Shown here piece after piece: positions 35,372 through 53,454 of a stretch of DNA of 64,000 bases; the stretch's first letter is position 1; each line of letters starts with the position of its first letter. Made by a program: the position numbers and the translations under genes. Under the pieces are notes generated by a model. The model ran no database searches. It saw only the letters and a list, made by a program, of their open reading frames with translations, and had not been told where the DNA came from. Source of the DNA: Marinobacter guineae (lineage in GTDB: Bacteria; Pseudomonadota; Gammaproteobacteria; Pseudomonadales; Oleiphilaceae). The DNA is taken from NCBI RefSeq assembly GCF_002744735.1, contig NZ_KZ319342.1:62001-126000 (forward strand). The letters are read 5' to 3'.

Positions 35372-35662
35372 CTATGACTCGGATTCGTAACTGATCAGAT
35401 CCACATCTGCTGCTTCGGCACGCAGAGGAACCAAATCCTGATATGCGGCGGAGTTGTGCCATTTATCCACGGTTTCCGGGTCCGGGAAGCGAATAACAAC
35501 GGTGTCCGTGTGGGGGTGTTGCCCGCTAAGTACTTTCGCTCGCGTGCCTCGAAGCACAAGTTCAGCACCCCAGGGCTCCAGTGTTTCTGGAACCCGACTC
35601 CGGTATTCCGCCCATTTGTCTGGGTCTTTTACGGTGATTTGGCCGATTACGTAGGCTGTCAT
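35372..35662 (-). CDS. DUF1330 family protein (intact copy)
   Basis: 96 residues, the standard size. MTAYVIGQITVKDPDKWAEY, VPETLEPWGAELVLRGTRAK and VVIRFPDPETVDKWHNSAAY follow the DUF1330 (EthD-like, dimeric ferredoxin-like) family, whose enzymatic role is unknown. The start is the ATG six codons into the open frame, matching the family start. A second copy at 46147-46287 is identical in layout but lacks 49 internal residues. Confidence 0.88.
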   Translation of the reverse strand: MTAYVIGQITVKDPDKWAEYRSRVPETLEPWGAELVLRGTRAKVLSGQHPHTDTVVIRFPDPETVDKWHNSAAYQDLVPLRAEAADVDLISYESES

Positions 35663-38705: not shown

Positions 38706-40328
38706 CTACACTTTCACCCGGAACTGCCCAATCAACTCTTGCAGCGTAGAGGCCATGCGGGCCAGTTCCTGGCCTGCCTGGGACGTCTGATTGGCACCTG
38801 AGGCGTTCTGTTTCCCCTTGTCGCTGATCAGGATCAGATTATGATTCATATCTTCGGCCACCGTACTCTGTTCCTCTGCCGCCGTTGCGATCTGGCTGCT
38901 CATTTGATCGATTTGTGACACCGATTCCACAATGGTCGTCAACGAAGAGCTCGCGAGAGAAGACTGATCAACTACGGATCTGGCCTGCTCCCGGCTCTGA
39001 CTCATTGCCTGTGCCGCATTGCGCGAACCTGTCTGAAGCTTTTCTATGATCTGGTTGATCTCTGCGGTAGAGGCCTGAGTGCGACCAGCCAGAGTTCTCA
39101 CCTCGTCCGCCACTACAGCGAACCCGCGGCCCTGCTCACCAGCGCGGGCTGCCTCGATTGCCGCATTTAACGCGAGCAGGTTGGTCTGTTCTGCGATGCT
39201 TTTGATCACATCCAGCACAGTGTTTATGTTGGCGCTGTCGCGTTCAACCTGGGTCATGACTTCCGAGGCTCTTTCAATCTGCACAGCCAGCTGCCCGATT
39301 TCCTGTACCGCCTGCTCCATAACCCTGTGGCCTTTTTCAGCCTCGTCATTTGCATCGTTTGCAGCCGTGGATGTATTACCAACACTCTCAGCAACTTCTC
39401 TTACTGTGGCGCTCATTTCGTTCATCGCCGTTGCCAACTGGTCGGTTTCGGACTGCTGCTGCTGAATATTGGCGCTAGTTTGTGCTGTTACCGTTGATAC
39501 CTCTTCCGCTGCTGTGGAAAGCTGGGTCGTTGTGCCATTAATCTGTGAAATCATCTCAAGTAGCCGTTGCTGCATGGATTGCAAACCTCGCATGAGGTCA
39601 CCGATTTCATCCCGGCGGGTCACCTCGATGGAGGAGGTAAGGTCGCCTTCTGCCACCCGCTGCAACTCGACCATAACCTTGGGCAGGCAGGCCAATACCC
39701 GTGATACGAGCAGGTAGACCAAACCAACGCCAAGGAGCACGATGATGGAACCGATAACGATAGTGCGCCCGGTTGATACGGCCGACATCTGCTGATTTGA
39801 CAGGGCAGCGACAGTGTTCTGATCAACCGTTTCAAGAAAACTATCGACCTCCTTCGACATTTTTGCGGCGACCTCATCAAATTGCGCCATCATCTGGTTT
39901 CCGCCGGACGGGCCCTCGTCAACATAGGCCTGGGCCATCTGTTTTCCGATGTCGTAATAGGCATTAAAAACCGGCAGCATCTCCCGATAACGCTCCGCAT
40001 GCTCACTATCAAGCAGGATGAGATCATCGATCAGTATTCTGAATTTTTCGGCGTTATTCGCGGCCTGATCAAAACCGTCATTCAACCCGTCACGACCGCG
40101 CGTGGCGCTGATGTCGGTCAGCCACTGCTGTACCTGAACCACCGACAGCTTTAACTCATGGGCTTTGTTGAGAACAGGGATTTTGTTTTCAGCGAGCTCG
40201 GTGGATTGGTTCCCAATGGCCATGTTGCCCATGATGATTGCGCCGCTCTCAATCACGACAACGGCGGCCAACAGGACAGTTAATACTAAAAAACGGATCC
40301 GGAGTGTCTTGTTTTGATAGGAGCTCAT
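38706..40328 (-). CDS. methyl-accepting chemotaxis protein
   Basis: 540 residues from the ATG with AGGGA upstream; 24 further codons are open but unsupported. The first membrane segment ([20 protein letters not shown]) and a second ([20 protein letters not shown]) enclose a periplasmic four-helix sensor of about 150 residues. A HAMP domain follows ([20 protein letters not shown]), then the long coiled coil with the signalling hairpin ([40 protein letters not shown]). The ligand is unknown. It is flanked by broken small genes but is itself intact. Confidence 0.93.
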
Positions 40329-40424
40329 ATTCAACAGTTCCCTGTAATATTTATTTTTCAGAGGGGCCATGCTTTCCGCCGCTACATCAGCAGGGCTCAA
40401 GAAAGCGGCTAACTGTGTTATCGA

Positions 40425-40625
40425 CTATTTCATGTCCACCTTTAGCTGAAAGGGTATGACAGAAACCAGGACAGATTGATTTATGTCTGGAATCGGAGCC
40501 AGAAGATCCGCCACCCCAATATCCACGCGCGTCTGTGAAAGGAACGTGGAAACCTGCCCACGGTGATTGGCTGGCAAATTGTTTCGCACACTTGCTGGTA
40601 CTTCGGAATTGCTGTTGGATGGCAT
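40425..40625 (-). pseudogene. chimeric ChaB N-terminus-DinB C-terminus reading frame
   Basis: 66 codons. Residues 1-19 (MPSNSNSEVPASVRNNLPA) match ChaB, including its GAGGCGAGACC leader. Residues 20-48 (NHRGQVSTFLSQTRVDIGVA, DLLAPIPDINQ) match the last part of the DinB protein encoded at 35819-36361. The join is in frame. The remaining codons run into flanking sequence. This is best explained by a deletion that removed the rest of ChaB and most of DinB from a former adjacent pair. It may be translated but has no expected function. Confidence 0.75.
40462..40484 (-). repeat. copy e of the TCTGTCCCGGTTT-type repeat, inverted
   Basis: Reads ATAAATCAATCTGTCCTGGTTTC on the minus strand, immediately after the DinB-derived segment. 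It is the only clear copy in the opposite orientation. Confidence 0.55.
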
Positions 40626-40635
40626 CGGTCTCGCC

Positions 40636-41220
40636 TCAGTTGCTGTGATTCCGGCCATGACGCAACTCGACGACGAGACGCGGCGGACTGCTCAGTTCGC
40701 GGACCCGATAGCGATTCGGCGACTCGACACCGAAGACCCATGTCACCACCGCCTCGAAGTCGCAGGTCAGCTCCAGCTCGGAGAGCACGGGCAGGTTTGG
40801 CATACGCTCACGATCGGCGACCGTCGGCTGTCCCTCCTCGGTGTGCGCATTCACCGGGTACATCCGGACCTCCAGCCAGCCATCACCGGCCAGGTCCGTA
40901 ACCTCGCCGGAGCCGCACTTGCGAACGGGTTGGTCTATGTACTCAGTGTGATACCCCGGAACCCGCTCATCGAACTCAAAAACGACCTGGTCGAAGCCTT
41001 CATGGGTGCCGGTACGGACAACGACAAGACTCGCAGCGGGCAGATCGGGTCGCGGCTGGTCGATTATGCCCGCTGTCCACTCTGGCGCAGGAACGGCACT
41101 CCGCTCGTCATCGACCTGAGGCGAGTGGGCTTTCTCGGTCACCGCACGGCCGCAGCCGGCTACTGCGAGACAGACGGTGATGATTGCCGCCTGATGTCGC
41201 ATCCGGCGAACCTTGTCCAT
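40636..41220 (-). CDS. lipoprotein with AMIN-like domain
   Basis: 194 residues from the chosen ATG; ATGs at 41256 and 41202 are alternatives. The lipobox is LAVAGC after a short hydrophobic segment. The C-terminal domain (SLVVVRTGTHEGFDQVVFEF, DGWLEVRMYPVNAH, RYRVRELSSPPRLVVELRHG) resembles AMIN-like beta-sandwich domains found in envelope proteins that bind glycan or pack against other envelope components. An outer-membrane lipoprotein of unknown function is likely. Confidence 0.72.
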   Translation of the reverse strand: MDKVRRMRHQAAIITVCLAVAGCGRAVTEKAHSPQVDDERSAVPAPEWTAGIIDQPRPDLPAASLVVVRTGTHEGFDQVVFEFDERVPGYHTEYIDQPVRKCGSGEVTDLAGDGWLEVRMYPVNAHTEEGQPTVADRERMPNLPVLSELELTCDFEAVVTWVFGVESPNRYRVRELSSPPRLVVELRHGRNHSN

Positions 41221-41252
41221 AATTCGCGGGCTCGTCAGGGTGCGATTGTGGA

Positions 41253-41453
41253 TCATGATCCTGCCTGAATGGGTGGACACGGCATGGTGCCGTAAGAACA
41301 GAAAACACAGCAGTCACCCGGTTTGGGTTTCAGCAAACGGCCGCAGGATTCACACTTGTAGAAGTACTGGCAGCTATCCTTGGGCATTGATTCCGTTTTC
41401 CGGTGGCTACAATGTGGGCATGTGAGGGTGGATTCCAGAATGATCTTAGCCAT
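41253..41453 (-). CDS. GDCCVxC domain-containing protein
   Basis: 66 residues. Two zinc-ribbon-like cysteine pairs (LTCPHCSHRK; YKCESCGRLL) precede KPGDCCVFCSYGTMPCPPIQ, the motif defining the GDCCVxC family. Some members are selenoproteins with U in place of a cysteine; here all positions are cysteine. A heavy-metal or redox role has been suggested only by context in other genomes. It lies 33 bases upstream of the AMIN-like lipoprotein gene on the same strand. Confidence 0.85.
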   Translation of the reverse strand: MAKIILESTLTCPHCSHRKTESMPKDSCQYFYKCESCGRLLKPKPGDCCVFCSYGTMPCPPIQAGS

Positions 41454-41607
41454 AACCGTGAACTCCTTTCAGCCCGAAGGCCGTGCCAGCGCCCGCTCCA
41501 GGGAAGAGAGACTCTCCGAAGTCTGAATGACTGGAACCACCGTCACTAAACGATATCATTTGAGCACGGGCGCTTAAAGATTGCCGATAACCCCAGAAGG
41601 AAACACC

Positions 41608-41931
41608 ATGTCGTACACGAGAAAATATACACCCGAAACACTCAGCCGTGACGAGCTGGACCAGACCACGGGCCCAATGGTGATCGAATTCGGTACCAAC
41701 TGGTGCGGGTTCTGCCAGGGTGCGCAGGCAGATATCAAAGCGGCGATGGACAATCACCCAGACGTTCCGCATGTGAAGGTCGAGGATGGCAAAGGCCGCA
41801 GGTTGGGGCGGACGTTCGGCGTTAAGCTCTGGCCGTCTCTGATTTTTTTGAAGGAGGGTAAAGAAATGGCGCGGGTAGTCCGCCCGGAAAACAGCAAAGA
41901 CATCGAAGGCGCGCTACGAAAAATTGAATGA
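41608..41931 (+). CDS. thioredoxin family protein, copy 1
   Basis: 107 residues with GAAGGAAACACC before the ATG. The active-site segment is VIEFGTNWCGFCQGAQADI, a CGFC variant of the thioredoxin CxxC, followed by a normal fold (GRRLGRTFGVKLWPSLIFLK). A cytoplasmic thiol-disulfide oxidoreductase is predicted. The copy at 43230-43553 differs at about 15 of 107 residues, and the two share about 60 bases of upstream sequence, so this is a relatively recent duplication. Confidence 0.9.
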   Translation: MSYTRKYTPETLSRDELDQTTGPMVIEFGTNWCGFCQGAQADIKAAMDNHPDVPHVKVEDGKGRRLGRTFGVKLWPSLIFLKEGKEMARVVRPENSKDIEGALRKIE

Positions 41932-41985
41932 GGCCTGCGCCGGTTTTACGAGACCCTCAGAACGCAAAACCGTCGTTGTTTATCC

Positions 41986-42216
41986 TCAGGATTTAATCTT
42001 CACCCACTTGTCGGCTTCCTTGTGATATTCCTCTTTCACCGCTGCCCAGGCCACTTTATGAGCGGTCTCTTCCCGGCCGGAATGGCCCCGGCGATCTTTG
42101 GGATCGCTGTATTCATCCCAGGCGGAATTGAACGCTTTGCGATAAATCTCCTGGGCATGGGCCGGCAAATTGTTGCGTACACTGGCTGGTAGTTCCGAAT
42201 TGCTATTGTATGGCAT
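41986..42216 (-). CDS. ChaB family protein, copy 2
   Basis: 76 residues, differing from copy 1 at a handful of positions and at the C-terminus (WVKIKS). The upstream leader is the same GAGGCGAGACCC. It follows a CPBP fragment on the same strand, repeating the CPBP-ChaB arrangement of copy 1. Intact by length. Confidence 0.88.
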   Translation of the reverse strand: MPYNSNSELPASVRNNLPAHAQEIYRKAFNSAWDEYSDPKDRRGHSGREETAHKVAWAAVKEEYHKEADKWVKIKS

Positions 42217-42286
42217 GGGTCTCGCCTCCAAAAACGGGTCCGTCAGTAACAGGCTAGCATCTGGTAGCGCGGGACAGGGCAAAAGG

Positions 42287-42479
42287 TTACAACTCCAGCA
42301 CAAGATTTCTGCCACCAAGAAAAAGCACCCAAACCGTTACCGCCGCCCAGTGAATGATCACCGGAACCCAGATAGACCGGCAGAGCACATAGGCGTAGCC
42401 ACAGGTAAGCCCCATAGCGCCTACGATAACCAGAACGTTTGCCGAGGTTGTTAGCGAGGTGCTTTTCGTTTAAAGCCAC
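42287..42479 (-). pseudogene. CPBP protease with large internal deletion, copy 2
   Basis: The 5' end encodes KHLANNLGK, matching the N-terminal KYLSNNLGQ of the intact protease at 47072-47611. The sequence then jumps, out of frame, to the C-terminal segment VIVGAMGLTCGYAYVLCRS and WVPVIIHWAAVTVWVLFLGG, ending at the normal stop. Roughly 115 residues are lost, including the catalytic glutamates. The start of this remnant overlaps the end of the methyltransferase-like gene by 10 bases. Confidence 0.78.
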
Positions 42480-42934
42480 CGCCGAACGCGTCGCTCATAA
42501 TCCCGGAAAGCTTCGCCGAAGCTATCCCGCAGGGCGCGTTCCTCCGGTTCGATCTGGAATCGGTTCATATAAAGCACAAAGAAAATCACCCCGATCAAAG
42601 CCCAGGCGGACGCCAGGAAAACGCCCCAGGCCAGCAGCCAAAACCCGAACCCCACATACATTGGATTGCGGGAGTAGCGGTAAACACCCGAGCTGACCAG
42701 CGTAGAACTTGCTTCTGGCTTGCGCGGGTCTACCGTTGTTTTCGAACGTCGAAAGGAAATCACCCCAGCCACAGGGAATAGAGTGCCCAGAACAAACACG
42801 ACCGCTGCTGCCACGCGAAGCATTTCGCCAGCTTCAATGCGCGGGCCTGAGTTTGCGATGACCCACATAAGCAACCACACGATCAGCACCAGAGCGAGGG
42901 GTGGAATGCGTTTTTCCAGCATGTGCGGTTTCAC
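42470..42934 (-). CDS. isoprenylcysteine carboxyl methyltransferase family protein
   Basis: 154 residues with about four membrane helices. STLVSSGVYRYSRNPMYVGF and the C-terminal EEx2LxxxFGExFxxYxxRVRRWL pattern (EPEERALRDSFGEAFRDYER) are signatures of the ICMT/phosphatidylethanolamine methyltransferase-like family of integral membrane methyltransferases. The substrate in bacteria is usually unknown. The gene appears full length. Confidence 0.88.
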   Translation of the reverse strand: MKPHMLEKRIPPLALVLIVWLLMWVIANSGPRIEAGEMLRVAAAVVFVLGTLFPVAGVISFRRSKTTVDPRKPEASSTLVSSGVYRYSRNPMYVGFGFWLLAWGVFLASAWALIGVIFFVLYMNRFQIEPEERALRDSFGEAFRDYERRVRRWL

Positions 42935-42940
42935 GAGCTC

Positions 42941-43050
42941 CTAAGCCTCAACAAAATCCAGAATCTCCTTCACCAGCTCATCAGGCTTCTCCTCAATAAC
43001 GAGGTGGCCTGCATCATCAATCACACGAAGAACCGTCCTTGCTACTCCTG
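42941..43050 (-). pseudogene. C-terminal fragment of an alpha/beta hydrolase
   Basis: About 35 codons, GVARTVLRVIDDAGHLVIEE then KPDELVKEILDFVEA and a stop, look like the extreme C-terminus of an alpha/beta hydrolase with the catalytic histidine in AGHLV. The upstream sequence to about 43140 has residues of this sort in other frames but no open reading frame. It abuts the upstream flank of thioredoxin copy 2. Confidence 0.55.
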
Positions 43051-43229
43051 CGATTGATGCCGCCAGACTGGCTGTGCTGCTTTTCAGGGGCCGATTGGCC
43101 GTCAATGCACAAACGAACATAGGGAATAGCCTTGCGCCGGGCCTCCGGAGTCTGGATGACTGAAACCATTAAACGTTATCATTCGAGCGAGGACGCTCAA
43201 AGTTTGTTGTAACCCAACAAGGAAATGCC

Positions 43230-43553
43230 ATGTCGTACACCAACCAATATACACCTGAAACCCTAAGCCGTGACGAGCTTGACCAGACCGCTGGCCCAAT
43301 GGTGATCGAATTCGGAACCAACTGGTGCGGGTTCTGCCAGGGGGCACAGGCGGATATCAGGGCGGCAATGGATAAACACCCGGACGTTCGGCATGTGAAG
43401 GTTGAGGATGGCAAAGGCCGCAGGTTGGGGCGGACGTTTGGCGTCAAGCTTTGGCCGACTCTGATTTTTCTGAGGAACGGGGAGGAAATGGCTCGATTGG
43501 TGCGTCCGGAAAGCAGCAACAACATCGAAGGTGCGCTGCGGAAAATTCAATGA
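43230..43553 (+). CDS. thioredoxin family protein, copy 2
   Basis: 107 residues with CAAGGAAATGCC before the ATG. It has the same CGFC active site and fold as copy 1 (TNWCGFCQGAQADIRAAMDK; GRRLGRTFGVKLWPTLIFLR). Substitutions are mostly conservative, so both copies are probably functional. The duplicated segment includes an upstream stretch with TGACTG.AACCA and AAACG.TATCATT.GAGC. Confidence 0.9.
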   Translation: MSYTNQYTPETLSRDELDQTAGPMVIEFGTNWCGFCQGAQADIRAAMDKHPDVRHVKVEDGKGRRLGRTFGVKLWPTLIFLRNGEEMARLVRPESSNNIEGALRKIQ

Positions 43554-43577
43554 GCCCGGCGCTGGTAATTTCAGCTG

Positions 43578-43600
43578 AAAATAAGTCTGTCCCGGTTTCT
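43578..43600 (+). repeat. copy f of the TCTGTCCCGGTTT-type repeat
   Basis: AAAATAAGTCTGTCCCGGTT followed by TCTGGTAGCGCGG; the latter 13-mer also occurs at about 42250, near CPBP fragment 2. Confidence 0.65.
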
Positions 43601-43612
43601 GGTAGCGCGGAT

Positions 43613-44602
43613 TCAATCGATGGGCGTCCCGGGGATGTTTTTCAGAAGTTCGGCATTTGTGGGGTACTTCTCAAGCAGCTCCACCAGCTTTTTTGTGCCC
43701 TCTAGCGGTTTGAGACCGCTAAGCGCCCGGCGCAACGCTCTTATTTTGTCTAAATCTTTCGGATCTAACAGCAGCTCTTCACGGCGTGTACTGCTTTTCG
43801 AAATGTCCAGCGCGGGGAAGATTCGCTGATTCGCAACGTCTCTTGATAAAACCAGCTCCATGTTCCCCGTGCCCTTAAATTCCTCAAATATAACCTGGTC
43901 CATACGGCTGCCGGTATCAACCAGAACGGTTGCCAAAATCGTAAGCGAGCCGCCATTCTCGAGGTTTCGTGCAGAGCCAAACAACCTCCGCGGGATCTCC
44001 ATCGCTCGAGCATCAATCCCGCCAGACATAGTACGACCGCTGCTCTTTCGCTCCGCATTGTGAACACGCGCAAGCCTCGTGAGAGAATCAATCACAATCA
44101 TGACATTGTGACCCTCGCCAGCTTGTTGGCGAGCGATATCAAGAAGCTCATCGGCAACGCGAGCGTGATGAGCATAGCTTTCATCCGAAGAAGAAGCGTG
44201 TACCTCAGCCGGGACGCTACGCTTGAAATCAGTGACCTCTTCGGGTCGCTCATCTATCAATAACGCGTAAAGTTTAATCTCGGGATACGCCTTTCCCACC
44301 GCCTGGCAAATATCTTTTAAAATCGTCGATTTTCCAGACCCCGGCGGTGCAACTATCAAACCTCGCTGCCCCATTCCAATCGGCGTGATCAAATCCATCG
44401 CGCGCACCGTGAGTTTTTCTGAACCTAACTCCAAGCGAATCCCCGGCGTTGGATTGATAGCCACACCGTTTAAAAAACGTTTTTGTGGATCAGCCTCACC
44501 TTCAACCTCAACCTCAACCTCAACCATAGCTTCGGCTTCCTTAGCCACTGGTTTAGCGTCTTTATTTGGTTTCCGGGTTAAACCTAATGTCTTTCTCGTC
44601 AT
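43613..44602 (-). CDS. Rho-type ATPase lacking the N-terminal RNA-binding domain
   Basis: 329 residues from the ATG chosen; the frame extends 39 codons upstream without support. From about residue 44 it is a complete Rho motor domain: [20 protein letters not shown], Walker A PPGSGKST (86-93), [14 protein letters not shown], Walker [19 protein letters not shown]-loop region [20 protein letters not shown], and R-loop [20 protein letters not shown]. The roughly 130-residue N-terminal helical/OB-fold domain that captures RNA in normal Rho is replaced by 43 residues containing a VEVEVEVE repeat coded by an AACCTC-type hexanucleotide run. It may be a second, specialised Rho or a parasite-borne Rho-like helicase. 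The gene is AT-richer than its neighbours and lies among mobile-looking material. Confidence 0.85.
44503..44525. repeat. AACCTC hexanucleotide microsatellite inside the Rho-like gene
   Basis: Four tandem units (CAACCTCAACCTCAACCTCAA on the plus strand) encode alternating Val-Glu. Slippage would add or remove VE pairs without changing frame. Confidence 0.75.
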
Positions 44603-44822
44603 AGCTGTTTGATAGCTCTTGTTTGATAGATATTTTTCGAAATGGGCTGATAACACCAAAAAAAAAGAAGCCCTAACAGATTGCTGAAGATCATTTTCGA
44701 CAAAGTCAGCCCAAGGCAAAAGGAAAGACCTGACCCCGATGTTTCCTGCCCTGACCTTGGCGGCGGCAAACTGTTACCATCTTCCGCCCCCAGTGACCAT
44801 TTTCCGACTCAAGGCTGATTAG

Positions 44823-45236
44823 ATGAGCATCGTTATGCGTTATTTCTTTCGATTTTTGCGCCTGGTACTGACCCCTGTGATCTTGCTGATGGAGAAGCTT
44901 ACCACGCCCAAGGCACTGTCCCGGTCAGCAGAAGATCAGGCTGCAGTTGATAGCGGCTGCAAGGATCTGGCTCTGTACCAGTTTCAGGCCTGCCCATTCT
45001 GCGTAAAAGTGCGGAAAGAAATTGCCCGGCTGGGCCTGAACATCGAATTACGAGACGCCCGGAATGATAAAGGCCATCGCGCCGAACTGGAAAATGGCGG
45101 CGGGCGAATCAAAGTGCCCTGCCTGCGCGTTACGCATAGCGATGGAAAGCAGGAGTGGCTGTATGAGTCCGGAGAAATCAATCAGTGGCTGAGAGAGAGA
45201 TTTGACCCGTCTGTCGAAGACGCAACCAACGCCTGA
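44823..45236 (+). CDS. glutaredoxin-like protein with N-terminal membrane segment
   Basis: 137 residues. A hydrophobic N-terminus (RYFFRFLRLVLTPVILLMEK) is followed by a glutaredoxin domain: LALYQFQACPFCVKVRKEIA with a CPFC active site, IKVPCLRV (cis-proline region) and EWLYESGEINQWLRERF. A membrane-attached dithiol glutaredoxin is predicted. The gene is intact. Confidence 0.9.
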   Translation: MSIVMRYFFRFLRLVLTPVILLMEKLTTPKALSRSAEDQAAVDSGCKDLALYQFQACPFCVKVRKEIARLGLNIELRDARNDKGHRAELENGGGRIKVPCLRVTHSDGKQEWLYESGEINQWLRERFDPSVEDATNA

Positions 45237-45265
45237 GCGGTCGAGACTGACTTGGAGTGCTTCCT

Positions 45266-45558
45266 CTATTCCAGCCTTTACGTGTCCCGACGCCAGTATG
45301 TTTCGCGGTATCAGGATGCCCCTGGAAAAGGCCTCTTCCAGCAGCGACGGGAACACGAACAATAATGGGGAGCAGGGGAGTGATTGCCGAATTTAACCAC
45401 CCGAATTTAAATAAACCGGCGCCCAAACCAGCGGATATCGCTATGATTACAAAAACCGGCACCAGTACCCAGGCCTTTAACGGCGCCTGAAAAGGGGAGG
45501 TCAGAATACTTTAGCCAAGGTTGTTACCGAGGTACTTTCCAGGCTTTGCTGAAATCAT
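45266..45558 (-). pseudogene. CPBP protease copy 3, with stop, frameshift and 3' deletion
   Basis: Starts like the intact gene at 47072-47611 (KPGKYLGNNLG) but a TAA replaces the next glutamine codon. The frame then continues SPFQAPLKAWVLVPVFVII, shifts at LLPII, and continues in another frame as FVFPSLLEEAFSRGILIPRN, then ILASGHVKAG, before homology ends. Three independent lesions mark it as long dead. Confidence 0.82.
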
Positions 45559-45573
45559 AAGGTCGCGGATTCA

Positions 45574-45595
45574 CAAAATAAATCTGTCCCGGTGT
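45574..45595 (+). repeat. copy g of the TCTGTCCCGGTTT-type repeat
   Basis: CAAAATAAATCTGTCCCGGTG, 16 bases before the ATG of CPBP copy 3. Confidence 0.65.
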
Positions 45596-45602
45596 TCCGG
45601 TC

Positions 45603-46082
45603 TCATTTTTTATGTAGCGCCCTGTAACGTTCCTCGAGTTCGGCACGAATAGCACGGCGCTCCTTACCGTTAGCAAACCGCCGAATCTGATCATCGGTGC
45701 GTGGAACCAGCTGCGGCACGGCGACGGCTTTGCCGTTGTCATCAACCGCCACCATGGTAAAAAAGCAGCTGTTGCTATGGCGGACCAACTTGTCCCGGAT
45801 GTTCTCGGTGACCACTTTGATGCCGATTTCCATGGAAGTACGGCCGGTGTAGTTCACACTGGCCAGAAAGGTGACCAGCTCGCCCACGTGGATGGGTTGG
45901 AGGAACATCACCTGGTCGACGGACAGGGTAACGACATACGTCCCCGCGTAACGGCTGGCGCAGGCGTAGGCGACTTCATCCAGATACTTCAGCAGGGTGC
46001 CGCCGTGCACATTGCCGGAAAAATTGGCTTTGTCCGGCGTCATCAGGACGGTCATGCTCAGGCTTGTTGAATTGTTTTCCAT
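45603..46082 (-). CDS. acyl-CoA thioesterase (YciA-like hotdog fold)
   Basis: 159 residues. MTVLMTPDKANFSGNVHGGT with the catalytic-site NVHGGTLLKYLDEVAY, VTLSVDQVMFLQPIHVGELV and TSMEIGIKVVTENI are typical of the YciA/BFIT single-hotdog acyl-CoA thioesterases, hexamers that hydrolyse medium- and long-chain acyl-CoA in the cytoplasm. The gene appears intact. It lies between CPBP copy 3 and the deleted DUF1330 copy. Confidence 0.9.
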   Translation of the reverse strand: MENNSTSLSMTVLMTPDKANFSGNVHGGTLLKYLDEVAYACASRYAGTYVVTLSVDQVMFLQPIHVGELVTFLASVNYTGRTSMEIGIKVVTENIRDKLVRHSNSCFFTMVAVDDNGKAVAVPQLVPRTDDQIRRFANGKERRAIRAELEERYRALHKK

Positions 46083-46146
46083 GGCGCTTCTCTGGTGGTT
46101 TGTTATCCAGTATAGGCGCCAGGGTGCTGGCAGGTGGCAGTACTTA

Positions 46147-46287
46147 TTAATCGGCCTCGAAAGTCACCAGATCTACATCCGCTGCCTGGGTGCGTAACGG
46201 CACCAGCGTTTCCGGCACCAGCCTGCGGTATTCCGCCCATTTGTCCGGGTCTTTCACGGTGATGTTGCCGATAACGTAGGCTGTCAT
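46147..46287 (-). pseudogene. DUF1330 protein with a 49-residue internal deletion
   Basis: 46 codons, in frame from ATG to stop. The first 28 residues (MTAYVIGNITVKDPDKWAEY, RRLVPETL) align with the intact copy at 35372-35662. Residue 29 onwards (VPLRTQAADVDLVTFEAD) aligns with its C-terminus. The missing 147 bases in the intact copy are bounded by ACACTGGAG and GATTTGGTT, which share TGG, and the join here reads ACGCTGGTG. The core of the fold is lost, so the product should be inactive. Confidence 0.85.
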
Positions 46288-46384
46288 TGGCGGTCTCCTG
46301 TTATCGAGTGGGTGAGAGGTCGGGTTAAATCGGATGGCAGCTGACTGCCAGGGACCAGTTCGGCCAATTGACTCTGGCTGGCTA

Positions 46385-46402
46385 ATGGGTGTCCCGGTTT
46401 CG
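46385..46402 (+). repeat. copy h of the TCTGTCCCGGTTT-type repeat, partial
   Basis: ATGGGTGTCCCGGTTTCG keeps only the GTCCCGGTTT core. It lies in a 186-base spacer with no other feature seen. Confidence 0.4.
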
Positions 46403-46473
46403 ATAAAGGTTCTTGGATAACCTTCGGGCTTTTCACCAATGATGGCAGGCTGCTGATAACTGCCTAAATCAGA

Positions 46474-47049
46474 TCAAGACTGGCTCCTGCGCTCGCACAG
46501 CTCTCTTGGTGCCCGTTCAATCTTTTGTGTGTCCGATATTTTCCCGGCCACGGGTATTATCAAAAAGCCCGTCCCGGCGAAGGCTGTCGATTGGCTGATG
46601 CGGCCCTGGCCAGAGGCATCCAGCCCAAGGACCGTCTTACTGGTCACCACACCAATGAAGGGATTGCCAGGCTCCCGGGCGCCGGAGGCGATGTATTCGC
46701 GCTTCAGCTCAAGCAGACCGGCCTTGAACTCGAACTCTTCTCCCTCCTGGAATCGGGAATGTGTGAGCACGACACCGTCTGAAATTGCAGAGGCGATCAA
46801 GCTGTTGCCATTGCCTTTCTGAATGAGGACTGCCTCCGGCCTTGTTTCTGAAGTATACCCGTCTGGCCAAAGGATGGAGGTCAAACACACGGGTGCTGAG
46901 CCGTCCGATGGGTTGCTGCAGTTCCTGTAACAACCGACAAATGCCTCCAGGTTGGGTGATTGCGCGAATCCGGTGTCGTTTTCCGTTACTTCTGTGGAGG
47001 CGCAGCCCGCAAACAACAGGGACAGTGTTATTAGAACGGCTTGTTTCAT
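46474..47049 (-). CDS. lipoprotein of unknown function
   Basis: 191 residues from MKQAVLITLSLLFAGCASTE, a lipoprotein signal with lipobox LFAGC. The mature part has a CYRNCSNPSDGSAPVC cysteine-rich segment and a beta-rich remainder with no family I recognise. The start overlaps no other gene; the CPBP protease gene ends 22 bases upstream on the same strand. Confidence 0.7.
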   Translation of the reverse strand: MKQAVLITLSLLFAGCASTEVTENDTGFAQSPNLEAFVGCYRNCSNPSDGSAPVCLTSILWPDGYTSETRPEAVLIQKGNGNSLIASAISDGVVLTHSRFQEGEEFEFKAGLLELKREYIASGAREPGNPFIGVVTSKTVLGLDASGQGRISQSTAFAGTGFLIIPVAGKISDTQKIERAPRELCERRSQS

Positions 47050-47071
47050 TTCCACGCCAATCTCCGAGGGG

Positions 47072-47611
47072 TTACAACTCCAGCACCAGATTTCTGCCAC
47101 CAAGAAAAAGCACCCAAACCGTTACCGTAGCCCAGTGAATGATCACCGGCACCCAGATAGACCGGGAAAGCACATAAGCGTAGCCACAGGTAATACCCAT
47201 AGCGCCTACGATAACCAGAAACCACGGATTCAGGAACAGAGAAATAGCCGTGGGGTTGAACGCCAGTGCATTGAACGGATGCCACACAACGAAGACCAGT
47301 GTGCTGATGGCCACACTCCAGGCGGCCTTTACGTGCCCCGACGCCAGTATGTTTCGCGGTATCAGTACGCCCCTGAAGAAGGCCTCTTCGAGCAGCGACG
47401 GGAACACAAACAACAGGATGGGTAGCACGGGTGTGATCGGCGAATCCAGCCACCCGAATTGAAATAAACCGGCGCCGAAACCGACAGACACCGCTACGAT
47501 TGCGAACACGGGTACCAGTGCCCAGGCATTCAGCGGGGCCTGAAAAGGGGAGGCCAGAAAGCTCTGGCCGAGGTTGTTACTGAGGTACTTTCCAGGGTTT
47601 GCTGACATCAT
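47072..47611 (-). CDS. CPBP family intramembrane metalloprotease, intact copy
   Basis: 179 residues with about five membrane segments. The catalytic EExxxR motif is in FPSLLEEAFFRGVLIPRNIL, the second-motif histidine in STLVFVVWHPFNALAF, and the third in VPVIIHWATVTVWVLFLGG. This is the CAAX-prenyl-protease-2/bacteriocin-processing (CPBP, Abi) family. Bacterial members often confer bacteriocin self-immunity or act in stress signalling; the role here is unknown. It is the only one of four copies in the window that is complete. The repeat copy i lies just before its ATG. Confidence 0.9.
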   Translation of the reverse strand: MMSANPGKYLSNNLGQSFLASPFQAPLNAWALVPVFAIVAVSVGFGAGLFQFGWLDSPITPVLPILLFVFPSLLEEAFFRGVLIPRNILASGHVKAAWSVAISTLVFVVWHPFNALAFNPTAISLFLNPWFLVIVGAMGITCGYAYVLSRSIWVPVIIHWATVTVWVLFLGGRNLVLEL

Positions 47612-47625
47612 AGGGTTGCGAATTC

Positions 47626-47650
47626 AAAAAATAGAGCTGTCCCTGTTTTA
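47626..47650 (+). repeat. copy i of the TCTGTCCCGGTTT-type repeat
   Basis: AAAAAATAGAGCTGTCCCTG then TTTTA, about 15 bases before the ATG of the intact CPBP gene. Confidence 0.55.
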
Positions 47651-47672
47651 CCGTTCTCGTTAATTCAGCGCA

Positions 47673-48341
47673 TTATGCCTCGCCAAGACTCTTGATGATG
47701 TAGCTACCAAGTTGCCGGGTGTTTAACGGATTGCCATTGCTGTTTAACAGGCTCAGATTGAGCGCTTTGGCCAGTTCCCGTAGCGCAGGCTTGGCCGGAA
47801 CCAATAGCTTTCCTTCTTGCTCAACCTCTATGCTGCCATTCTCTATCTCGCGGACGATATAGCCCTCGAAAGACACCTCTCGCAACGTCTTCAGGTCGCT
47901 TCGCGGCCGTCCCTTTTGTACAATCCGGCTGAGAGGCAAACCTTGCTTGCCAGAACGTACAGGAGAGAGCAGTTGAATCGCCTCATTAATCGGAGCATTC
48001 AGGAGTGTCTCGATCTGCATGTCCTCTGTGTTGATCTGAAGAATAATGATTCGGTCAACAAGATCGAGAGAGCTCGGATTAAAAGAGACGTGTCCTCCAG
48101 TCCCGACTCTGGCCGTAGTCTTGACGGAGATCCGTTCGCCGTCACCACTTACTACGTCATAACCTTTCTGGTTGACCTCAGTTGCCATCTGCCCGTTGGT
48201 GATCAACGCAGCGTACAACTCACCAATCCGACCGCAAAGGTGGCGTAACTCAGTTGGCGGTACGCCCCAGCTCAGCTCCCGCTCAAACCAAGCCATCGCT
48301 TCACCAAGGGACTGGATGAGCTGCATTTGTGTTAGTGCCAT
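47673..48341 (-). CDS. hypothetical protein, possible nuclease-like domain
   Basis: 222 residues. The N-terminal helix (LIQSLGEAMAWFERELSWGV) is followed by ATEVNQKGYDVVSGDGERIS and VKTTARVG. A Glu, a following Asp and a VK pair with this spacing recall the PD-(D/E)xK nuclease core, and the arrangement resembles the DUF6998-like group; the assignment is tentative. The C-terminus (NTRQLGSYIIKSLGEA) forms a small separate helical domain. The gene lies between a truncated IS3 orfB and the CPBP gene and may have arrived with mobile DNA. Confidence 0.6.
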   Translation of the reverse strand: MALTQMQLIQSLGEAMAWFERELSWGVPPTELRHLCGRIGELYAALITNGQMATEVNQKGYDVVSGDGERISVKTTARVGTGGHVSFNPSSLDLVDRIIILQINTEDMQIETLLNAPINEAIQLLSPVRSGKQGLPLSRIVQKGRPRSDLKTLREVSFEGYIVREIENGSIEVEQEGKLLVPAKPALRELAKALNLSLLNSNGNPLNTRQLGSYIIKSLGEA

Positions 48342-49059
48342 AGATACTCAGTTACTAGCGTCAAAAAATAAACCTGTCCCGGTTTCTCGGTATGTCTCGG
48401 CTTCTCGGTACACTGTCCTGGGCGGTTCATGCTGTGCCGTACCCGGTACTGATTCAGCAGAGCCTGGGTCTTGTGAGCGCGATATTCGATACCACGATCC
48501 GTATGGAACAATAGGCCTGAGGCCGGTCTACGGCTTGCGAAGGCCTCTCGGAGAGTTGCCCTGGCAAAATCTGCGCTCAGATTCTCACCTAGTCGCCAAC
48601 TGATGATGCGTCGGGAATACAGATCCAACACCACCGCCAGGAACACGTATTTCTTACCCAGCTTGATGTAGGTGACATCGCTGCTCCATTGCAGATTCGC
48701 TGCGGCCGGTTTGTCGGGCTCCAGTCGATGATTCGGCAGGGCTTTCAGGTCTTCCCTGAGCTTCCTCATTCGGCGATATACGCGAGCAACACGGGCTTTC
48801 ATTCCCCATTCCCGCATGACCCTCGCAACCCGATTCTCACCCACAATCAGGCCCTCTTTACGAAGAGCCTGATAGACTCTGGGGCTGCCATAACGGCCCT
48901 TACTGCCGTCATAGACTCTGCGGATCTTCAAGAGCAAATCAGCATTCTCAGCAGCTCTCTGGCCGGGCTTGCGGTTTGCCCAGGCGTAGTAGCCAGACCG
49001 CGAGATGTTCAGGTGACGACACAGCGCCTTTACTCCGTGCTGTCCCCGGTGTTTCCAGA
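48332..49059 (-). pseudogene. IS3-family transposase orfB, missing the last catalytic residue
   Basis: Read by frameshift from orfA: FVWKHRGQHGVKALCRHLNI, then the HTH_21-like GRYGSPRVYQALRKEGLIVG. The integrase core has the first two catalytic aspartates (WSSDVTYIKLGKKYVFLAVV; FHTDRGIEY). After RVRHSMNRPGQCTEK the sequence no longer matches; the family continues DNAxxESF with the catalytic glutamate. The frame then reads through unrelated sequence and repeat copy j. The transposase is inactive. Confidence 0.82.
48363..48388 (+). repeat. copy j of the TCTGTCCCGGTTT-type repeat
   Basis: AAAAAATAAACCTGTCCCGGTTTCTC. It sits exactly where the truncated IS3 orfB loses homology, i.e. at a deletion junction. 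Confidence 0.65.
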
Positions 49060-49445
49060 CGAATCTGAACGCTTCCGTCGTTCCTCTGCCTGAAAACGTT
49101 GAAACTTTTTTAGGATGTCATTTTCCTCCTGAAGCTCCGCTATCCGGCGTTTCAGACGATTGATCTCATCCCGTTCCTTCAACAGCTCTTTGGCACCCGC
49201 TGGTGCTTTCTTGACCCGCTTCATGGCGAACTTCCCTTCCCGGTATTCCTTTCGCCAGCGTGACAGCATGAAGGGGTGAATATCCAGCGCCTCGGCCACC
49301 CCTTTTACACTTCGGTGGGGCAGGTAGCTCCACTCCACCGCTTTGACTTTGAACTCAATGCTGTACCTTTGGGTCTTCTTCCCCGTGTTCATTGCAGGCA
49401 TCGTTCTTCTCCTGTTGAGGAGTTATCGATGCGTGTCTACTGAAG
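48412..49445 (-). mobile_element. IS3-family insertion sequence, 3'-truncated
   Basis: Contains orfA and the frameshifted orfB of an IS3-family element reading leftwards. The upstream end lies inside a broken attC site near 49445-49455, so the element inserted into the integron array. The downstream end is missing: orfB stops matching at about 48412, next to repeat copy j. Boundaries are approximate because I could not identify both terminal inverted repeats. Confidence 0.75.
49030..49392 (-). CDS. IS3-family transposase orfA
   Basis: 120 residues. A helix-turn-helix typical of IS3 OrfA (EFKVKAVEWSYLPHRSVKGV, AEALDIHPFMLSRWRKEYRE) is followed by a leucine-zipper coiled coil (LLKERDEINRLKRRIAELQE). 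An A6G run (plus-strand CTTTTTT around 49105) near codon 97 is a standard slippery site for the -1 frameshift that makes the OrfAB transposase. The start is the second ATG. Confidence 0.85.
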   Translation of the reverse strand: MNTGKKTQRYSIEFKVKAVEWSYLPHRSVKGVAEALDIHPFMLSRWRKEYREGKFAMKRVKKAPAGAKELLKERDEINRLKRRIAELQEENDILKKFQRFQAEERRKRSDSSGNTGDSTE

Positions 49446-49455
49446 TGGGGGAAGT

Positions 49456-49484
49456 CCTGCGTCCCGTTGACCGCCTTGTTGTGC
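49456..49484 (-). repeat. attC site 7, half left by IS insertion
   Basis: Minus strand reads GCACAACAAGGCGGTCAACG then GGACGCA, the R'' end of an attC, before IS sequence begins. The heptamer GCACAAC is complementary to the GTTGTGC that opens this cassette (site 1), as the cassette model requires. Confidence 0.75.
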
Positions 49485-49485
49485 G

Positions 49486-49971
49486 TCATTTTCGATACTC
49501 CTCCATGATTTCCCTCAGCCTCTCCTTGTACTCCATCTCGATATCCGGCCCGCACCTACCTACCTGGTCTTCAAAAATCGGATTCAATGCTGTCTGGTAA
49601 TAGCCCCCATTCGAATCAATCGACTGAATCGTGTACTCGGTGCGCCATTCCCACATATTTTTACTTGGCACAAAGGTAAAGTCGGTGCCTTTGCCCCAAC
49701 GTGCCATGTTTTCTTCCGATCCATCCAAATTTCTGAATTTACAATAAAAGTACGAACCTTCATCAGGTTGTGACTCGGCAGCCTCGGGGGGTCTTTGGTT
49801 CACACTAGTACATTCAGCTTGGCTGATTCCGAACTCTTCGCAACAGCTAATTTGGCTCGTTTGGTCTGAGTGGGCGAGGCATACCCTCAGATCCATATTG
49901 TCCACCGATGCCAAAGCCAACGGGAGGTAAAACAAGAAAACGATGAACAATGGCAGTGTTATTCGTAACAC
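49486..49971 (-). CDS. integron cassette gene G: secreted protein of unknown function
   Basis: 161 residues. A signal peptide (LPLFIVFLFYLPLALA) leads a mature region with several cysteines (VCLAHSDQTSQISCCEEFG; YFYCKFRNLDGSE; VGRCGPDIEMEYKE) and no known domain. Codon use and composition are AT-richer than the flanking chromosome. It begins 44 bases after the cassette boundary, and its own attC is the one broken by the IS. Confidence 0.7.
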   Translation of the reverse strand: MLRITLPLFIVFLFYLPLALASVDNMDLRVCLAHSDQTSQISCCEEFGISQAECTSVNQRPPEAAESQPDEGSYFYCKFRNLDGSEENMARWGKGTDFTFVPSKNMWEWRTEYTIQSIDSNGGYYQTALNPIFEDQVGRCGPDIEMEYKERLREIMEEYRK

Positions 49972-50014
49972 CCAAAAGGCTCCTTCCTATTGTTTTGCTC
50001 AATGTAGCTGTAAC

Positions 50015-50086
50015 GCACAACGCTTTGCTCACCGGTAAATTAAGAGCGCAGCGAGTAATTTATCCGTGTGCAGCAACTTGTTATGC
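50015..50086 (-). repeat. attC site 1 (end of cassette F)
   Basis: 72 bases, bounded on the plus strand by GCACAAC and GTTATGC with imperfect internal symmetry (GCTCACCGGTAAATT.AGAGCGCAGCGAG). On the minus strand R'' is GCATAAC and R' is GTTGTGC. The internal sequence closely resembles site 3. Confidence 0.85.
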
Positions 50087-50115
50087 ATTTTCTAGATCAA
50101 GTTTACTTTTGGCAT

Positions 50116-50763
50116 TTAGAAAAGGCTACTACCGTTTTTAGTCTTGAAATACAGCAGGCCATTATATTTCTTCTCAATTAAAATATTCTCTTCATATTTA
50201 CGACTGTGAGAGTAATTAACCTTAAGAACAAATTCCTGCTCCCCTACAAACTTAAAATTATGATCTGGTACTTTTGGCGTTTTATCTTCGCGAGATGTCG
50301 GCTGGTAAACAAAATAATTTTCATCATCACTCTGTCGGCAAAAAATTATTAGGCTCGCTTGCTTTCCTGATTCAAGAGTAACTTTATCATCCACTCTATT
50401 GCCTTCTACATTCCACCATAACTGACCAACACTCTCGCCAGTGCTCTTCAGGAATAAATGGGCTCTACAATCCCTGGCTGGATGCTTGTCAAACGTCAAC
50501 CCTTTTCTAAAACCGGGATGGATTCGCAATCCTAGTATTCGTGACTCTCGTAAATTGATGCCAAACCAGCCTACTTTATTGGTAAAGGTCAAGCTATTTT
50601 GCTTGAACCCTCTACCCACTCCCCCTGAGCCAGATCCATTCCTTTGTAACTTCGGTTGCTTAATAAAAAAATCGAGCCATAGACCAATCAAGGCACTAAA
50701 AATGGCGCCAATTAAAATAGATGTTGGATCTAGACTCGAAAGAAAATTGCTAACCAAATCCAT
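50116..50763 (-). CDS. integron cassette gene F: membrane-anchored protein of unknown function
   Basis: 215 residues. One N-terminal membrane helix (SILIGAIFSALIGLWLDFFI) anchors a beta-rich soluble domain (NKVGWFGINLRESRILGLRI; CRAHLFLKSTGESVGQLWWN). No family is recognised. The C-terminus is lysine-rich (IEKKYNGLLYFKTKNG). AT-rich composition fits a foreign cassette. There is no promoter-like spacing before it, so expression probably depends on upstream transcription. Confidence 0.72.
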   Translation of the reverse strand: MDLVSNFLSSLDPTSILIGAIFSALIGLWLDFFIKQPKLQRNGSGSGGVGRGFKQNSLTFTNKVGWFGINLRESRILGLRIHPGFRKGLTFDKHPARDCRAHLFLKSTGESVGQLWWNVEGNRVDDKVTLESGKQASLIIFCRQSDDENYFVYQPTSREDKTPKVPDHNFKFVGEQEFVLKVNYSHSRKYEENILIEKKYNGLLYFKTKNGSSLF

Positions 50764-50809
50764 GTAGCATCCTAATATTTAAAGATTGTGATTACAGCGA
50801 ATCCCTACT

Positions 50810-50887
50810 GCATAACTCTTAGCCTCAGCGGCCGATTTGGAGGCGCACCGCGCCGGAAAGGCGGTCCGATGCAGCCCCTTGTTAGGC
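50810..50887 (-). repeat. attC site 2 (end of cassette E)
   Basis: 78 bases bounded on the plus strand by GCATAAC and GTTAGGC, with a long imperfect palindrome (GGAGGCGCACCGCGCC...GGCGGTCCGATGC). On the minus strand R'' is GCCTAAC and R' is GTTATGC. Confidence 0.85.
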
Positions 50888-50891
50888 CTGT

Positions 50892-51572
50892 TCACAACAA
50901 GCTCCCAGCGTTCCTGCTCAACTCCGTTATTTGCTTATGGCAATGGTTTAGAAATGGAACTATTTCTAGCTCTTTACCATGAAATTTTATTCGAGTATTG
51001 GTCGTGACGAGTGTGGTTCCAGAGTGCCTCACTACATTTGCGTTGCCGTCCCCATCTATGAAAACGTCATCCTGACGAACGCCGTTAAAGTAGTTACCTA
51101 CCATCATCACATTTCGTCCACCCTCTATCCGGGCAAAACCCTTCTGCTCAACAACGGTATTCTCTTGAGACTCTGTTTTCGACAAACTGTTATGCTTTGC
51201 GTCGTTTGTCAGTGAGCATAAATCAACAACCCAGTTATCTTTAGATTTGAAAGGCTGAATGCTCTCTAACAAATCGTATATTTTTGGCTCGTCCTCCTTT
51301 AACGGCGGCAAATTCCGCTTAACACTATTGTTAAAATGATTTTCCCTCTGACCATATGGAAAATACACTTTTTCCGAAAGGTTACCGTTTTTAGGCTTAG
51401 TTTTTAGCTTAATAACAATATCTTGAGCCAAGTAGTCCAACACGCTCCTCAAATTCTCCAACGTGTTTTTTAGTAATATTCTATTCAACTCACCGTCTGA
51501 TATAGATTCTTCAACGCCTTCGATCTGATCAGTACAGTGCACGAGAAGCTGTCTAATATCATCATTATGCAT
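50892..51572 (-). CDS. integron cassette gene E: protein of unknown function
   Basis: 226 residues from the ATG after GAGCGAGGGAGTGTGT; an in-frame ATG 18 bases earlier touches the cassette boundary. The N-terminal half is helical (LKNTLENLRSVLDYLAQDIV) with a segment SLTNDAKHNSLSKTESQEN. The C-terminal half is beta-rich (RNVMMVGNYFNGVRQDDVFI). It resembles short uncharacterised cassette proteins in which an HxxN-type helical domain is linked to a beta sheet, but I cannot name a family. Confidence 0.72.
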   Translation of the reverse strand: MHNDDIRQLLVHCTDQIEGVEESISDGELNRILLKNTLENLRSVLDYLAQDIVIKLKTKPKNGNLSEKVYFPYGQRENHFNNSVKRNLPPLKEDEPKIYDLLESIQPFKSKDNWVVDLCSLTNDAKHNSLSKTESQENTVVEQKGFARIEGGRNVMMVGNYFNGVRQDDVFIDGDGNANVVRHSGTTLVTTNTRIKFHGKELEIVPFLNHCHKQITELSRNAGSLL

Positions 51573-51591
51573 ACACACTCCCTCGCTCATA

Positions 51592-51661
51592 GTCTAACGC
51601 CGCGCTCACCGGCAAATTGGAGCGCAGCAGAGATTTGTCCGAGTGCAGCGCCTTGTTAGGC
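51592..51661 (-). repeat. attC site 3 (end of cassette D)
   Basis: 70 bases bounded on the plus strand by GTCTAAC and GTTAGGC. On the minus strand R'' is GCCTAAC, matching the GTTAGGC that opens cassette D, and R' is GTTAGAC. Confidence 0.88.
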
Positions 51662-52783
51662 ATTTTCTCTCCGGTAAACTGAGCTTAGAGCCCGCTTTGC
51701 TTCACCTTCATATCGTGACAATCCTCGAATTTTCCAGAAATAGTTAAGTATCGGATCATTTTCACAAACAGGGAAAAGTCTATCCTCAAAATTGGGCGGT
51801 ACCATCTTCAGAATTTCGGAAGTTACCTCAACTACACAGCAAAGATAACTTGCCATTTGGTTCTTCGCTTGCCCCCATCCGACATGCCCAAACCACGCAT
51901 TTTGATGATCTGGGCGACATTCTGGAAAGCAATCTGGCTTCACAACTTCATGTGAATAGACGGCATTCTTTGGACACCGGAAGAAGAATAGTCTACTGGA
52001 GCCAAGGTCCTGAACTGGTTTACATATTGCGCAGCCGCTTGCATCAATATCAATTGAGTTTGATGCAAACCATAATGCAACTTGAAGATTATCAGTTAAA
52101 TCCAGACCAACACTGGGCAATCCATAGTGTTGTGCAAGACCCAATCCGAATGGTATAAATCTTGGTCCAGACTGCAACCGATTTGTGCTTTCAGAGAACC
52201 TAACGAACTCTTCGCTGGTGAGTTCATCCTTCATATCCACAGAGATATCATGTAGCAGAATTCTGGCTTGTGACTCCCAAAGGCAATTTAGAAAGAGCTC
52301 GGAATATCCTTTCCGGATCCCACTCGCCAAGAATGATGGTTCCACGTGATCTATTGAACCGAAAAGAAGATGTTTTTCCTCGTCGGACCGAGAAAGGCTA
52401 TATGTCGATGTTTGTCCACGGGCAAGTATTTCGTGTTGAGGAGAGTATTTTTTTACATCGGCGAACAGATTATTGAGCTCCGAAATATCCCTAACTCGAA
52501 ACACTGGGACTCGCCTATAAGGTACACGCATCTCTCCCACGATTTCACCAGAAAAGCCACAGGGATAAAAAGGCATCGACGAGCTTTTCCCATAGGGAAC
52601 TCCAAACTTATAAACATTTTCCGAGAAAACTCTACCATACTGGTCGTCGAGCACTGGAGATTCCAAAGTGTTGGCAGCAATGTCTAGATTTCCGAATTGA
52701 CTAACTTCATTCCGAATAGGGTAGACGTTATATAGTCCAGGATATGTTAAAAGCTTATCCTTGACATCTAATGAAGCGATCAT
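51656..52783 (-). CDS. integron cassette gene D2: FRG-domain protein
   Basis: 375 residues. The FRG signature is present: ILARGQTSTYSLSRSDEEK (the R-G-Q box) around residues 119-137, and LAQHYGLPSVGLDLTDNLQV then ALWFAS around 218-244. The FRG domain is found in proteins near phage-defence and toxin genes and is thought to be an enzymatic or nucleotide-binding fold, but its reaction is not established. The start codon overlaps the stop of gene D1 by four bases, so the two are translationally coupled and travel as one cassette. This makes a two-component system likely. Confidence 0.78.
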   Translation of the reverse strand: MIASLDVKDKLLTYPGLYNVYPIRNEVSQFGNLDIAANTLESPVLDDQYGRVFSENVYKFGVPYGKSSSMPFYPCGFSGEIVGEMRVPYRRVPVFRVRDISELNNLFADVKKYSPQHEILARGQTSTYSLSRSDEEKHLLFGSIDHVEPSFLASGIRKGYSELFLNCLWESQARILLHDISVDMKDELTSEEFVRFSESTNRLQSGPRFIPFGLGLAQHYGLPSVGLDLTDNLQVALWFASNSIDIDASGCAICKPVQDLGSSRLFFFRCPKNAVYSHEVVKPDCFPECRPDHQNAWFGHVGWGQAKNQMASYLCCVVEVTSEILKMVPPNFEDRLFPVCENDPILNYFWKIRGLSRYEGEAKRALSSVYRRENA

Positions 52784-53358
52784 GTGACAATTATCCCCGT
52801 ATTCTCGATCTGTGGAAAACCGTAGCTATTGAACACCCACATCTGCACGAAATACGAGAAAGCTGTAGATGCGTTCGCATTGAGGAAAAACCCCGCTCCA
52901 TACTTCTGTTGCAATTCAAAGTATTCTCTAAATTCATTTGCAGTTGAAATGACCTCGTTATGAAATTCCGAGAAAACTGAAATCACTAAATCAATGTATG
53001 AATCCATCGCTGTCACTATGATTTTTCTATCATTTACATCTAGAGAGATACTACTTTTTTTGTGTCCACTCACTAGAATAGAGTTAACAAAATCGACCTC
53101 TTTGTCACCGACCTCTGATTTGTATACATCGATACAATCGTTTTCAATCCGTGTATTAACCATCAGAAAATTGAGGATTTGTAGATAGCCGCAATCAATT
53201 AGGTGACGGAATATCTGCTCGTCATTGACATACAAAACCATACTTGATGGTTGAATTGGATCGTAATCCGTTCCTAGTTTCCGAACCAGCTTCACGAATC
53301 CGAGAGAAGGTATTCTCGAGTTAAAGTGTTTACAAAAGTCCTTGTAGGAATCTTCCAC
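52780..53358 (-). CDS. integron cassette gene D1: partner of the FRG-domain protein
   Basis: 192 residues from a GTG with GGAG eight bases before it. The open frame extends further but would cross the cassette boundary, so it is rejected. There are no recognised domains. The sequence is mixed alpha/beta with YVNDEQIFRHLIDCGYLQIL and ISLDVNDRKIIVTAMDSYID, and a hydrophobic C-terminus (STAFSYFVQMWVFNSYGFPQ). Because it is coupled to the FRG gene it could be its antitoxin, sensor or cofactor; this is inference only. Confidence 0.65.
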   Translation of the reverse strand: MEDSYKDFCKHFNSRIPSLGFVKLVRKLGTDYDPIQPSSMVLYVNDEQIFRHLIDCGYLQILNFLMVNTRIENDCIDVYKSEVGDKEVDFVNSILVSGHKKSSISLDVNDRKIIVTAMDSYIDLVISVFSEFHNEVISTANEFREYFELQQKYGAGFFLNANASTAFSYFVQMWVFNSYGFPQIENTGIIVT

Positions 53359-53375
53359 TGACAATACTCCAATCT

Positions 53376-53454
53376 GCCTAACGCTGAAACTTCGCGGCAA
53401 TTTTGGAACCGCGAAGCGGTGGAAAAATTGTCCGGCAACAGTGCATTGTTATGT
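53376..53454 (-). repeat. attC site 4 (end of cassette C)
   Basis: 79 bases bounded on the plus strand by GCCTAAC and GTTATGT, with internal symmetry (CTTCGCGGCAATTTT / AAAAATTGTCCGGCAAC, GAACCGCGAAGCGG). On the minus strand R'' is ACATAAC and R' is GTTAGGC. Confidence 0.85.

Follow-up and report, generated by a model that had tools for sequence, protein, structure and literature searches.

How did a small gene in Marinobacter guineae come to lose its whole middle while its two ends stayed joined in one open frame? The question is raised by a 46-aa open reading frame at 46147..46287 (minus strand) of the window, by which we mean the whole 64,000-nucleotide stretch of DNA that was analysed. 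A preliminary description, made from the letters of the window, had set this frame against an intact DUF1330 gene at 35372..35662 (minus strand, 96 aa), read the difference as a deletion scar, and put forward a microhomology of three bases at its edges.

The short DUF1330 copy and its intact relatives

The observation of a gapped DUF1330 copy is confirmed. Remnant and paralogue are separated by one gap of 147 nt, or 49 codons, and their nucleotide alignment runs ungapped on both sides of it, with 85% of nucleotides identical in the 100 nt that precede the gap, so that the coordinates of both copies, the size of the gap and the alignment outside it all hold as previously described. The start codon, an upstream AGGAGA and the stop codon are retained in the short copy. 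With the Pfam profile DUF1330 (PF07045) the paralogue scores 90.4 bits, whereas the remnant scores 23.3 bits, above the curated cut-off of 23, yet with a match that covers profile positions 1-27 only and thus falls short of the full domain of ~94 positions; the short copy was not among the matches listed in a six-frame search of the genome for DUF1330. The 46-aa ORF is a remnant of the DUF1330 family and no working member of it. The intact gene has sequence relatives of known structure in 3lo3 (E 2.9e-14) and 2fiu (E 1.4e-11), DUF1330 proteins that are full length, unlike the 46-aa product, with which a PDB sequence search gave no match up to E 1. In a literature search on DUF1330 structure, DUF1330 was absent from titles and abstracts.

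The genes fall into two sister types, A (GQIT...ISYE) and B (GNIT...VTFE), and the window carries one copy of each. The intact paralogue is of type A, and the remnant is of type B on both sides of the join, with GNIT at its N-terminal end and RTQAADVDLVTFEAD at its C-terminal end. A search of 124 Marinobacter genomes (G000 being that of the window) with a 201-bp query made up of the remnant plus flanks found nine other genomes in which the spacing of the two halves exceeds that in the window by exactly 147 nt, namely G023 (BW6), G131, G139, G079 (M. maroccanus N4), G096, G009 (M. flavimaris), G104 (EhC06), G130 and G058, and found the joined short form in the window's genome only (1 of 124). 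These orthologues are full-length by translation and alignment, and they are adjoined by the same thioesterase gene that lies downstream of the remnant (45603..46082, minus strand; Pfam 4HBT, 71.2 bits), which served as the anchor for finding orthologues of the locus. The flanks of the remnant share 94-97% identity with the G023 orthologue. The closest relative is G139, which has the highest identity to the window in the core YcaO gene (89%) and is its sister in the thioesterase tree (98/95), a tree of 480 columns in which 9 of the 14 inner branches are weakly supported; the part of the thioesterase gene that G139 retains is 97% identical to that of the window.

Since the corresponding locus in these relatives holds an intact gene, the comparison of genomes places the short form as a derived deletion, and we consider its polarity settled. 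The scar is therefore better supported than it was by the paralogue, and when the breakpoints are aligned with the orthologues the gap again measures exactly 147 nt. A naturally short subfamily can be ruled out: although the copies represent two sister types, no full orthologue of either type lacks the segment, and five aligned type A genes of relatives are full-length as well.

A direct repeat at the breakpoints

In G139 the gap is bounded by two perfect copies of a 10-bp sequence, CGCTGGTGCC, which stand at offsets 79 and 226 of the gene, 147 apart; among the direct repeats of the G139 gene taken with 100 bp on each side, this one is the longest. At the join in the window (46199..46208, minus strand), where 147 nt are lost relative to the intact orthologues, one copy of the repeat is retained and no bases have been added. 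The edge repeat in other orthologues is shorter, with CGCTGGT (7 bp) in G023 and TGGT (4 bp) in G131. An automatic reading of the junction between G000 and G023 gave 0 bp, with its best split outside the repeat, and the 7 bp is taken from the alignment; junction rows of low score (23-29 of 40) were left out, these being G142 against G131, G014 against G139, and the second copy of G079 against G131 and G139.

The earlier reading that the edges share only TGG is true of the paralogue and untrue of the orthologues. It was taken from the paralogue, a diverged copy in which the repeat has itself been lost, and because the paralogue has no direct repeat of at least 7 bp within the gene, TGG was all that could be seen there; a microhomology of 3 bp gives way to the 10 bp of the nearest orthologue. 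A microhomology-sized deletion is thus upheld as a mechanism in kind and corrected in the length of the repeat. For the ancestor, 10 bp would be the best estimate because G139 is nearest to the window in both YcaO and the thioesterase tree, and 4 bp is the floor that the other orthologues allow; all 10 bp occur in G139 alone.

Possession of a repeat of at least 10 bp is not in itself rare, as a direct repeat of this length or more turns up in 4.25% of the sequences when the 291-bp gene is dinucleotide-shuffled 400 times. The position of CGCTGGTGCC at the breakpoints exceeds chance, because only a fraction of 0.000147 of the 74,760 junction positions at the G139 locus (deletion lengths 60-299) lie in a repeat of at least 10 bp. 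The locus shows the features by which a deletion between short direct repeats is recognized, with a repeat at both edges in the undeleted relative, one copy kept, and outgroups that show the deletion to be derived. We consider it highly probable that the remnant is what is left of a full-length type B DUF1330 gene after a single 147-bp deletion between short direct repeats. The ancestor would have been a full-length type B gene carrying CGCTGGTGCC, or part thereof, at two places, and a single deletion of 147 bp between them would have left one copy at the join. The likeliest route would be RecA-independent strand slippage during replication, and single-strand annealing after a break could have produced the same scar. 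Slippage assisted by a hairpin is unsupported, as the folding of the intervening DNA is unremarkable and would not promote it (z 0.22).

Such events have been described elsewhere. A report on Haloquadratum walsbyi lists repeat-mediated deletions with repeats of 10-19 bp in 16 cases and 7-9 bp in 11, and gives deletion, not insertion, as the change in 10 of 11 decidable cases (PMC3119063). As described there, a direct repeat is found at both ends in the intact relative and one copy is left in the other; unlike that study, which compared strains of one archaeal species, ours spans different bacterial species of one genus, so the repeat can be reconstructed only from a sister species. RecA-independent recombination in E. 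coli K12 is likewise reported to delete sequence between short direct repeats, in experiments that used a genomic island and a plasmid, whereas the window records one natural event (PMC5426353). The H. walsbyi precedent is close (PMC3119063). The change in the window is ordinary gene erosion by deletion between short direct repeats, and as a single event it matters little, being one more natural case of its kind. It does carry a caution, as the use of a paralogue to read the breakpoints made the repeat look shorter than it is (3 bp, as opposed to up to 10).

Loss of the gene in other species and the fate of the product

The thioesterase gene was found in 43 of the 124 genomes, and all 18 matches of at least 87% identity, including partial ones in G139 and G015, were inspected. 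Beside this close thioesterase, the type B DUF1330 gene is intact in nine of the 18, which are the same nine genomes named above, and is reduced to a remnant in five (G000, G007, G142, which is M. vulgaris F01, G014, and G015, where it lies near a contig end). Three have none beside the thioesterase (G064 and G029 without any match, G010 with a type A gene only), and in G074 a DUF1330 copy of 83% identity lies ~3.8 kb away. Because several lineages have lost it separately, the type B gene appears to be dispensable in the genus.

The scars differ in how much sequence their edges share. In G142, 303 bp were lost with 0 shared bases, in G014 345 bp with at most 1, and from the second G079 copy, which is decayed, 228 bp with 2-3, and G139 has a deletion of its own, of 97 bp with 2 shared bases, that took the start of the thioesterase gene. 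At least 4 bp were involved in two of six scars. Short repeats explain the window's deletion well, but they are not a general rule at the locus, since the other measured junctions show little or no microhomology (0-3 bp). With intact relatives available, the independent erosion of this one small gene in several Marinobacter species allows deletions driven by repeats to be set beside repeat-free ones at a single locus. In G079 (L093) the type B copies stand in tandem, one intact at 9817-10101 and one reduced to fragments at 10427-10455 through a different internal deletion.

The scar in G007 lies at the same right-hand repeat and can be read either as a deletion of 139 bp through CTGG or as one of 147 bp together with an 8-bp duplication. 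Under the second reading, one 147-bp deletion could have reached both G007 and the window's genome through exchange of the DUF1330-thioesterase segment, with G007 later gaining a tandem duplication of 8 bp (CTGGTGCC twice). G007 does read ACGCTGGTGCC and then directly CTGGTGCCGTTACGC, and the segment is 95% identical between G007 and the window as against 83% for the core YcaO gene, which makes exchange between species likely. The thioesterase tree, however, puts G007 with G142 and G064 (97/93) and the window with the intact G139, and an independent deletion of 139 bp through CTGG explains G007 equally well, so we regard a shared deletion as unlikely. Exchange of the segment as such is a separate matter, and sequence divergence suggests that it has probably taken place between species: synonymous divergence from the window is 0.22-0.29 in the thioesterase gene (G007, G014, G142, G064, G010, G023, G131 and G079) and 0.72-1.08 in YcaO for the five computed (G131, G023, G079, G142 and G064), and YcaO identity is 81-83% in G007, G014 and G010. 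The thioesterase divergence of G139 was not used, as its value came from a second, diverged thioesterase gene.

The frame of the remnant stayed open because 147 is divisible by three, and a 46-aa peptide may still be made. For the paralogue, AlphaFold2 predicts the elements E3-11 H14-31 E34-41 E52-59 H62-69 H72-84 E85-94 (mean pLDDT 78.5), and the missing residues, ~28-76, correspond to strands 2 and 3 and helix 2, together with the end of helix 1 and the opening part of helix 3. The model of the 46-aa product, made from a shallow alignment of 7 sequences, has a mean pLDDT of 59 and a pTM of 0.32. Without beta2, beta3 and alpha2 the product would probably not attain the DUF1330 fold, and because the deletion takes these elements out of the predicted fold the product is probably dead. 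The remnant would then probably be a pseudogene that has lost its function and whose frame is open by chance.

Retention of the 46-aa product as a selected, functional mini-protein seems very unlikely to us, even though the frame has been kept along with the start codon, AGGAGA and stop, and only 4 of the 46 codons (two of them silently) differ from G139 apart from the stop. One third of deletions are in frame by chance, the short form occurs in a single genome of the 124, the gene has been lost altogether in neighbouring lineages, and the product is poorly modelled with two central strands and a helix gone. The species is represented by one genome, and an assembly error or a deletion during culture might be suspected; we give this hardly any credence, as a 10-bp repeat is not normally collapsed by short-read assemblers and the ORF is far from either end of its 232-kb contig. 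Recombination or gene conversion between the paralogues, to which the presence of two DUF1330 copies 10.5 kb apart on the same strand and of chimeric gene fragments elsewhere in the window might point, has next to no chance of being the origin of the short copy and is rejected, as the sequence to the left and right of the join is of type B (at least 94% DNA identity to type B orthologues, against 80-85% to the type A paralogue) and gene order and neighbouring genes likewise correspond to the type B locus.

The reshuffled locus and the integron array

The 147-bp deletion lies in a region of wider rearrangement. Compared with eleven related loci (L080, L082, L086, L087, L092, L093 and L198-L202), the window at ~31-48 kb holds the same small genes in different orders and with broken copies, near the ribonucleotide reductase gene. 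The repertoire comprises DUF1330, thioesterase, CPBP, ChaB, thioredoxin, a Rho-like ATPase and others, in part as fused and broken copies, and some stretches of the locus are 94-96% identical between species as against 81-83% for the core gene. Chimeric or truncated copies lie at 38188-38690, 40485-40637, 45274-45604 and 42285-42435, including further CPBP pieces. The start of CPBP is fused to ChaB between positions 38430 and 38431, and the start of ChaB to the end of DinB between 40565 and 40566; at most a few bases are shared at these two junctions, a weak reading given paralogue references that are 10-20% diverged. The Rho-like ATPase (368 aa, 43613-44719, minus strand) matches Pfam ATP-synt_ab and other ATPase families, with no N-terminal RNA-binding domain detected by Pfam. 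G139 and G142 have copies at shuffled positions that are 92-94% identical to it.

An intergenic motif of 24 bp, GAAAACCGGGACAGATYTATTTTC, is clustered in this region. The 4.46 Mb genome has 25 matches at up to 3 mismatches (reversed control, 0), of which 22 fall in two clusters, seven at 35747-48383 of the window and 15 at G000 C1:1.27-1.355 Mb, and the motif occurs in 100 of the 124 genomes at up to 2 mismatches, with a control of 0 in each genome. One copy of the clustered motif, ACCGGGACAGATYTATTTT, lies just downstream of the thioesterase gene (45575..45593, minus strand). A REP element of a Y1 transposase was ruled out as the source of the motif, as the genome has no Y1_Tnp gene. The window gave no hits to Rfam at gathering scores and none in tRNA scans, and literature searches for the motif strings GGGACAGATTTATTTT and GACAGATCTATTTT, for GGGACAGAT together with integron and cassette, and for Marinobacter with superintegron found nothing. 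It is conceivable, if rather doubtful, that genes are shuffled at the locus upstream of ribonucleotide reductase in an array separate from the integron system, with GAAAACCGGGACAGATYTATTTTC marking the boundaries of units and deletions such as that of 147 bp arising as a by-product.

At 49.4-54.5 kb the window carries a genuine array of integron cassettes with attC sites, and the DUF1330-thioesterase pair lies outside it. The attC core pattern is matched only at 50.0-51.7 kb, plus once at 11.6 kb, and within 35-48 kb there is no similarity to the attC-bearing stretches of the array. An identity of the pair as an integron cassette was rejected, as no attC was detected beside it, although a divergent attC could have gone undetected. 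The motif is joined to an apparent attC half at 12980-13090 of L198 (G064) and at 13640-13740 of L082 (G010). No integrase was seen adjoining the cassette array region (49400-54950). An integron integrase with a strong score (427 bits) is encoded on a different contig, at G000 C6:4471-5406, and the stretches just before it resemble the window at 54725-54755 and 54916-54951.
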